A stretch of DNA of 64,000 nt. Source: Pegea sp. RAD2-039 (taxonomy: Eukaryota; Chordata; Thaliacea; Salpida; Salpidae). The notes below the pieces were generated by a model. The model was not told the origin of the DNA, made no database searches, and saw only the letters and a list, made by a program, of their open reading frames with translations. This document shows, piece by piece, positions 32,501 through 34,356 of the stretch. The position numbers and the translations under genes were made by a program. The stretch's first letter is position 1; every line of letters starts with the position of its first letter. The stretch spans positions 2,356,001 through 2,420,000 of the forward strand of contig JAQGEQ010000380.1 of assembly GCA_034620365.1 (NCBI GenBank). The letters are read 5' to 3'.

Positions 32501-33998
32501 TGGTCCAACAAACTTTGCTTCTGTCATTCGACACGTGACTCGCTTTGCTGTTGAAGAGTCACAGAAAAAAACAGCTTCTGTTAGTAGTTCTCATCTTATT
32601 AATTTATTGTTAATATTTTAGAGATTGAAAAGAAAACTTCAATTAAATCTCTCTTCTGTTTCTTTTATCAAAATATTTAGTTTTAATTCTCAAATTTTGT
32701 CTACTTTGAAATTAAATCGAATTTTTTTCTAAAATATCTGAACTAGAAAGCACTAATATCAATTGAGTTCAGAAAAATTCAACAAACAAATTTTCAGAAT
32801 TATTATGTCTTGTTGATTCTGACTGATGGAGAAATCACAGATTTTGAAGAGACGAAAGAAGCGATTGTGGACGGATCTAACCTGCCTATGTCAATCATAA
32901 TAGTTGGTGTTGGTTAGTGATTAATGACTTCTCAATTTTCTTTTGAGATAATGGTTATAATTAATTATAAATTCTATTAACGTTTGAATTAACAGACTAA
33001 TTAATGTTCCCTTAAGATAAATCCACAAACAGAGTCTCCTTCAGATGATCGTAGAACTTTTGCTAAAATAATTCACAAATTAGATGTTGAAATGAGTTTA
33101 ACTGATTGATGTCTCTTACAGGAGCGGCAGACTTTTCTCAAATGGAAGCTTTGGATGGTGATTCATCTCGGCTAGTTGATCGAAGAGGTCGTGCTTGTAC
33201 TCGAGATATTGTTCAGTTTGTTCCTTATCGAGATTTTCTAAACGTAAGTATTTGTTCAATTTTCTTTACTTCCAACCCACACAATACAGCACACACTTTT
33301 TTACATAAAATTCCATTCATTTTTATCTAAATTCTAGTTTTATTTGATCACATATAAAGCTGAGTTGTTGAAATTGTGTAGCATTTAAACTAACAGACAA
33401 ACTCCAGTATTTTCTAATTCAATTTTTATTTGATGTCTTAATCAGCTTTATAAAGATTTTATTATAAAAATATTTGATTTATGGAATTGTTTGTTGGTTT
33501 AAAATTGGGATACATTTAATTAAACTTTTTTTGGTATTTACTTTTTCTTCTTTAAATTTGCTTTTTGCTGCAAACATTTTAAGATAATTGTAATTTTTTC
33601 TAATTCTGTGATACACAAGATCATTAAGTTGTGAATTTTGATTTAATATAAATAGATCTTTCAAACTGATCTCAAATTCTCCACCAACATTTCTAATCAT
33701 GAACTACATAGTAGAAGAAGTTTCATCTTAGATTTCCTATTGAGTATTAATCAAAATAAACTTTGATGTCATATTAGTTATTCATTCATACTTCATCGTA
33801 GAGAGCTTATGAATTTGTGAGTAATATTAAACAACTATACAGAAATCACAAGACGTTCTTGCCCGTCATGTTTTAGCTGAATTACCAGACCAACTTGTTC
33901 AATATTTCCGAGCCCGTAAGATTGCACCAATGGCATTGCCACAGTCGTCAACATCTACTTTAACTTCTCCACCGCCGCCTTATAAATGGTACTTTTAA
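29509..33998 (+). CDS. copine (C2A-C2B-vWA), isoform with proximal last exon, 555 aa
   Basis: Exons: 29509-29658, 30239-30418, 30532-30603, 30674-30751, 30907-31080, 31170-31265, 31523-31612, 31804-31863, 32133-32373, 32446-32579, 32798-32912, 33122-33243, then terminal exon 33843-33998 ending in TAA. All introns are GT-AG, and phases agree (1,512 nt common part plus 156 nt). The first C2 domain (~15-130) shows [12 protein letters not shown] and the acidic [10 protein letters not shown]. The second (~148-275) shows [12 protein letters not shown] and [14 protein letters not shown], with the Asp residues that bind calcium in C2 domains. The copine/vWA domain (~295-500) shows [15 protein letters not shown] (MIDAS-like D-x-T-G-S), [17 protein letters not shown] and ILTDGEITD. 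Total length is in the usual range of 530-590 aa. Copines are cytosolic proteins that move to membranes on calcium rise and recruit partners through the vWA domain. This last exon gives a tail rich in Ser, Thr and Pro, ending [10 protein letters not shown] do not assign a vertebrate paralogue number. Confidence 0.95.
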
Positions 33999-34069
33999 TA
34001 ACTCTTATTTGCATAAAATCTATTGTTGTATAAAGTTGCCTGGTTTATTTGTTGGCAAGCGCAGCTGAC

Positions 34070-34075
34070 AATAAA
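34070..34075 (+). terminator. possible poly(A) signal for the proximal copine isoform
   Basis: A canonical AATAAA lies 72 nt after the stop codon of the proximal last exon and before the distal exon, where a proximal polyadenylation site would be needed. AATAAA is common by chance in AT-rich DNA, so this is only suggestive. A matching signal for the distal exon is less clear; the nearest AATAAA noticed is at 34842-34847. Confidence 0.35.
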
Positions 34076-34224
34076 TTGAATTAATTGAGTTGATTCTATT
34101 TGTTTAAACAATTTTCTACTTGGTCTATACTACATTAGAAAGTTTGAAAAGTTTAAACTGATTAAAATTTGAAGTTTAGAAATTACTTAATTTTTAGCAC
34201 TTTTTTTTATTTTTTTATTGGCAG

Positions 34225-34356
34225 AAAGACTTTGGTGATTTGGCAAAAGCAGTTCTTGCAGAGGTTCCTAAACAACTGACGGATTATTTCAAGTGTCAAA
34301 ATATTGAACCAATGAAACGTACTTTCCAAGAGGTTTCCTCTGTATCTTCTGAATAA
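34225..34356 (+). CDS. alternative distal last exon of the copine (isoform of 547 aa)
   Basis: A 3' splice site (T-rich tract then GGCAG) precedes 44 codons ending in TAA at 34354-34356. The encoded KDFGDLAKAVLAEVPKQL and DYFKCQNIEPM match, position for position, the [18 protein letters not shown] and [11 protein letters not shown] of the exon 230 bp upstream. Both exons start in phase 0, so either can follow exon 12 (ending FVPYRDFLN at 33243). Both carry their own stop, so they are mutually exclusive C-termini rather than successive exons. The conserved core is the C-terminal helix of the copine domain. The tails differ completely: TFQEVSSVSSE here against a Pro/Ser-rich tail upstream. Conservation of the reading frame argues that both are used. 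Confidence 0.85.
   Translation, partial: KDFGDLAKAVLAEVPKQLTDYFKCQNIEPMKRTFQEVSSVSSE

Follow-up and report, generated by a model that had tools for sequence, protein, structure and literature searches.

Copines are calcium-responsive membrane-binding proteins, and the copine gene described here raises the question of how many ways such a protein can end. The final coding segment of this gene appears twice, in two neighboring exons that a preliminary description had interpreted as duplicated, mutually exclusive last exons. Are both exons used, or is one of them a relic, an internal exon or a piece of another gene? We addressed this question using the whole 64-kb stretch of DNA (hereafter, the window) and the other copine genes of the same assembly.

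A copine gene with two candidate last exons

The forward strand of the 64-kb window contains one complete copine gene, whose 12-exon core (29509..33243) is followed by two candidate last exons, A and B. Exon borders were placed by hand from GT/AG dinucleotides and homology, yielding a predicted, sequence-based gene model in which the start of exon 11 (32798) was chosen by homology.

29509-29658, 30239-30418, 30532-30603, 30674-30751, 30907-31080, 31170-31265 (+ strand): copine exons 1-6, GT/AG and homology
31523-31612, 31804-31863, 32133-32373, 32446-32579, 32798-32912, 33122-33243 (+ strand): copine exons 7-12, GT/AG and homology
33244..33842 (+ strand): intron before A, with donor AAC/GTAAGT common to both candidate last exons
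33843-33998 (+ strand): terminal exon A, last vWA segment and tail, stop TAA
34225-34356 (+ strand): terminal exon B, last vWA segment and tail KRTFQEVSSVSSE, stop TAA

Exon 12 ends in phase 0 at 33243 and is directly followed by GTAAGT. A and B lie 226 bases apart; each is preceded by AG, starts in phase 0 and carries its own stop, which is the phase and stop structure of alternative terminal exons. The coordinates, phases, stops and translations initially given for the two exons were all confirmed. Joined to exons 1-12, A yields a protein of 555 amino acids and B a protein of 547 amino acids, with no internal stop in either form. Exons 1-12 account for both C2 domains and the larger part of the Copine/vWA domain. 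In form A, the C2 profile (Pfam PF00168) matches two stretches (107.6 bits), the tandem arrangement expected of a copine, and the Copine profile (PF07002) is matched over its full length (positions 1-217 of 218; 276.8 bits; cut-off of 27). The gene is a copine of the animal type.

Several other elements were observed around this gene. Upstream of it, on the minus strand, exons of the Frag1/DRAM/Sfk1 family (PF10277) are located at 24088-25653, with one exon reaching 38.0 bits (cut-off of 30.3) and another 22.8 bits. Further away on the same strand (3872-5915), a RhoGEF-like piece (15.1 bits) is followed by an SH3-like piece (16.9 bits), both below the Pfam cut-offs; this is perhaps an ephexin-like gene. 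Downstream of the copine gene, a fragment at 36425-36710 resembles Gag and includes a CCHC zinc knuckle (PF00098); its score of 19.6 bits falls short of the 20.8-bit cut-off. Finally, the segment 38180-38420 is an interspersed repeat with at least 188 candidates across the assembly and 40 scored matches besides itself (72-83% identity). We take it to resemble a tRNA-Val gene, and it is perhaps a tRNA-derived SINE; ARAGORN detected no tRNA genes in the window.

Homology and coding signal of the two exons

The first 30 residues of A and B align without gaps and are identical at 15 positions. Their local alignment score is 76, relative to 18.3 ± 3.6 for 5000 shuffles of B (maximum of 40). When each exon was compared to the 2857 six-frame segments of the window, the runner-up scored only 37 with A as the query and 40 with B. 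A and B are therefore adjacent homologous exons of a single gene, and the claim that they encode homologous versions of the final copine segment stands. The end of the Pfam Copine profile is matched by A (positions 191-217 of 218; 17.2 bits) and by B (positions 193-217; 18.0 bits). Given how short the pieces are, neither single-exon score reaches the 27-bit threshold of the family: the equivalent piece scores 22.1 bits in the second copine gene of this assembly and 14.1 bits in the third. The core shared by both exons can be written LA..VLAE.P.QL..YF. Past this common segment we found no relation between the two tails, as had been proposed.

We further evaluated the coding signal of both exons using the introns of the same copine gene as a reference. 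Codon log-odds reach 42.2 bits for A, compared to a maximum of 14.2 among 863 overlapping non-coding windows, and 23.0 bits for B, compared to a maximum of 12.4 among 868 such windows. The GC-content of A and B (42% and 36%, respectively) can be compared to that of the other exons (36%), the introns (22%) and the gap between A and B (25%). The probability of observing open frames of this length by chance is about 0.9% for A and 1.9% for B. Codon usage thus marks both A and B as predicted coding sequences.

Age of the duplication

We estimated the divergence of A and B at dN = 0.59 and dS = 2.6 (NG86), with dS being saturated by maximum likelihood (19.6); the resulting dN/dS is a rough estimate, as it rests on 30 codons only. 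Among the 15 residues common to both exons, the same codon is used at eight and a different codon at seven. Since synonymous sites are saturated while half of the residues are kept, the duplication looks old and neither copy has decayed. These results, together with the Pfam matches and the codon bias, support the initial suggestion of a tandem exon duplication that preserved the frame and provided two C-termini.

We then compared the 28-residue core of each exon to the matching segment of the second copine gene. A and B share 13 identical residues, A and the second copine 15, and B and the second copine 14, indicating that A and B have diverged from one another about as much as each has diverged from the same segment of a separate copine gene. 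The vWA regions of the window copine and the second copine are 61% identical. The duplication may be as old as the split of the copine genes or it may have diverged faster.

Other copine genes of the assembly

The search of the 105.7 Mb assembly with PF07002 (E ≤ 0.001) returned nine matches, which we assigned to three copine genes. The second gene presents two C2 domains and is 53% identical to the window copine over the alignment:

C262, about 634800-639870 (- strand): second two-C2 copine gene

Searching the assembly with A retrieved three places: A itself, B (E = 0.022) and the corresponding exon of the second copine gene (E = 0.033). Likewise, B retrieved itself, A (E = 0.018) and the same exon of the second copine (E = 0.148). 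Besides its own locus, each query retrieved only its partner and the terminal exon of the second copine, so that the latter gene appears to possess a single exon of this type. Its protein ends with GSPPPSYN, and its last intron is located earlier than that of the window gene, before residues FVPFRDF. In the third gene (C3:2106357-2106983), nearly the whole copine domain (profile positions 9-217) is contained in a single open exon, and no C2 domain was seen by eye in the 1.5 kb upstream. Patterns derived from the three-copine and vWA alignments yielded 154 and 198 matches in viral contigs, and the vWA pattern yielded 42 matches in prokaryotic genome contigs; none were confirmed, and these searches are uninformative for animals.

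The matches of the assembly also bear on the origin of the second terminal exon. B (or A) might belong to another copine copy in tandem, separate or partial, of which it would be the tail, as tandem clusters of copines exist in other animals (PMC10729735). Alternatively, it might result from an assembly artefact. However, the profile search revealed no spare copies of other copine exons adjoining the window gene, and the 226 bp between A and B contain no copine segment among the top matches. In addition, A and B cannot be mis-assembled alleles, since their identity is 50% over 30 residues. This explanation is largely refuted and we consider it extremely improbable.

Splice sites, polyadenylation signals and RNA pairing

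The donor of exon 12 is strong: its score of 9.26 is reached by 0.5% of the 3083 GTs of the window. Acceptors were scored with a matrix built from 23 acceptors of two copine genes, whose leave-one-out scores range from -2.57 to 10.93. The acceptor of B is also strong, its score of 9.36 being reached by 0.8% of the AGs of the window. With a score of 1.45, reached by 27.7% of these AGs, the acceptor of A is weak but remains within the range spanned by known acceptors. The frame of A is open from 33831 onward; of the AGs in its vicinity, only that at 33842 preserves this frame. Three further signals were identified:

33916..33921 (+ strand): donor-like GTAAGA inside A (CCC/GTAAGA), score 9.52, top 0.5% of GTs
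34070..34075 (+ strand): AATAAA, candidate poly(A) signal 72 bases past the stop of A
34832..34837 (+ strand): AATAAA, first candidate poly(A) signal past the stop of B, with others following

The weak acceptor of A lends some support to a reading in which only one of the two exons is used. The other would be a relic, or would persist unspliced as a coding-like remnant of the old duplication. Yet both exons retain an open frame, a codon bias and the LA..VLAE.P.QL..YF core in spite of saturated synonymous sites. A dead exon at this position should have decayed, given that 8.8% of intron triplets are stops. The use of a single exon is therefore unlikely in our view.

The donor-like site inside A raises another scenario, in which A would be mainly an internal exon. 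Splicing at 33915/33916 would join a shortened exon (A', 33843-33915) to B, and the protein would then end with ...YFRAQRLW*, B serving as 3' untranslated sequence and the gene having at least three endings. Such a product would retain the whole final helix, and few GTs of the window score as high as this donor. Nevertheless, the downstream half of A is still coding-biased (15.5 bits over 21 codons) and the tail of A carries a PPxY motif, like the tail of the second copine. The donor also overlaps ordinary Arg-Lys codons, and it may be a coincidence of the codons CGT AAG. We regard this scenario as very unlikely.

The AATAAA motifs located after A and B constitute weak evidence, because this motif occurs 2.8 times per kb in the window, a frequency that is not above expectation. 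We also searched for competing RNA pairings among intron 12, the gap between A and B and the 400 bases after B. In this crude test against shuffled pairs, 37, 8 and 97 of 100 shuffled pairs were equally stable, which provides no indication of competing structures. Four inverted pairs with 72-76% complementarity were found in 33244-34500, including 33663-33690 with 34466-34493.

Mutually exclusive or alternative terminal exons

The description of A and B as mutually exclusive holds at the level of the protein, because A carries a stop codon. As a splicing class, the term goes too far: strictly mutually exclusive exons form a cluster between further exons, whereas both A and B end with a stop and no copine exon was found past B, and the pairing test was negative. 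An untranslated exon could still lie beyond B. Homologous 3'-terminal exons of this kind have been classed among the alternative terminal exons, served by several poly(A) sites, and are usually not regarded as mutually exclusive in the true sense (PMC3228551).

We consider it likely that A and B are tandem-duplicated alternative terminal exons of old origin, both copies having been retained, whose use would depend on the choice of 3' splice site and poly(A) site. Under this reading, a tandem duplication of the last coding exon would have occurred far back in the history of the copine gene, and the two copies would have remained in use. Exon 12 would be spliced either to A, with the transcript ending after the stop of A and probably polyadenylated upstream of B, or to B, with A being skipped. 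The choice might reflect a kinetic contest between the upstream but weak acceptor of A, with its poly(A) site, and the strong acceptor of B, and cell-type splicing factors might tune the outcome. One gene would probably be able to produce two proteins with distinct final helices and tails.

The two predicted C-termini

We take the segment common to A and B to be the last helix of the vWA fold. In integrin-type domains, the last helix relays the state of the metal site. In A, the segment can be aligned with the end of the vWA chain crystallised from BON1 (6kxk). Choosing between A and B would exchange the last vWA helix.

The tails differ in another respect. A PPxY motif, the type of ligand bound by WW domains, occurs in the tail of A (PPPY) and, as PPSY, near the C-terminus of the second copine, but not in B. 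Only 1 of the 418 window segments of at least 40 amino acids contains PPxY, and the genome presents at least 25 matches to WW domains. Judging from the motif, WW proteins such as Nedd4-type ligases could be partners of isoform A but not of isoform B. The choice of A would then add, and that of B remove, a C-terminal WW-domain ligand, which might change the partners or the turnover of the copine. The complete scenario, in which one splice switch both swaps the last vWA helix and gains or loses a PPxY able to recruit Nedd4-type ligases, so that one gene yields two copines, one coupled to a ligase and one not, whose vWA domains are tuned differently, is speculative and we propose it only tentatively. 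Among the matches listed in the open-access literature (titles and abstract openings), we found no report of a PPxY motif in a copine.

Known parallels and implications

Other genes offer well-known examples of this arrangement, and the present copine is a further case of a known class. In human genes, 77 of the 236 annotated tandem-duplicated exon events are C-terminal; C-terminal events are enriched and most events are ancient (PMC9741552). As in our case, these isoforms are identical except for a related C-terminus, but here the gene is an invertebrate-like copine whose two forms are predicted from genome sequence; the words copine and CPNE were absent from the main text of that study. The duplicated last exons of the G protein alpha-o gene and of the amphioxus preGNAS gene also swap the C-terminal helix of a signalling domain (PMC5896119). 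There, exons come in pairs and the swapped helix is alpha5, with a role in receptor coupling; in the window copine, the duplicated unit is one exon, which encodes the last vWA segment. Tropomyosin and capping protein beta likewise have 3'-terminal exons that are homologous and each carry a stop (PMC9741552, PMC3228551), but these are other proteins, and the copine tails are unrelated past the common helix. Finally, PGRP-LC of Drosophila relies on a choice among duplicated 3' variable regions (PMC9013439); that choice is steered by competing RNA structures, in contrast to the negative pairing test obtained here.

The window copine resembles BON1 and human CPNE1-9 in its two C2 domains and its Copine/vWA domain. 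The isoforms of human copines are mostly deletions or alternative N-termini (2024 review, PMC10968396) rather than products of duplicated last exons. This agrees with the earlier statement that a duplicated terminal exon is not a standard copine feature, a statement for which our own comparison covered the copines of this genome. Among the matches listed in the open-access literature, mostly titles and abstract openings, none describes a copine with duplicated last exons. The present gene adds one case to the tandem-duplicated C-terminal exons, a class enriched in human genes (PMC9741552). The C-termini of copines and the partners of their vWA domains are poorly understood, and two natural isoforms that are identical up to the last vWA segment would offer a direct probe of the roles of this segment and of the tail.
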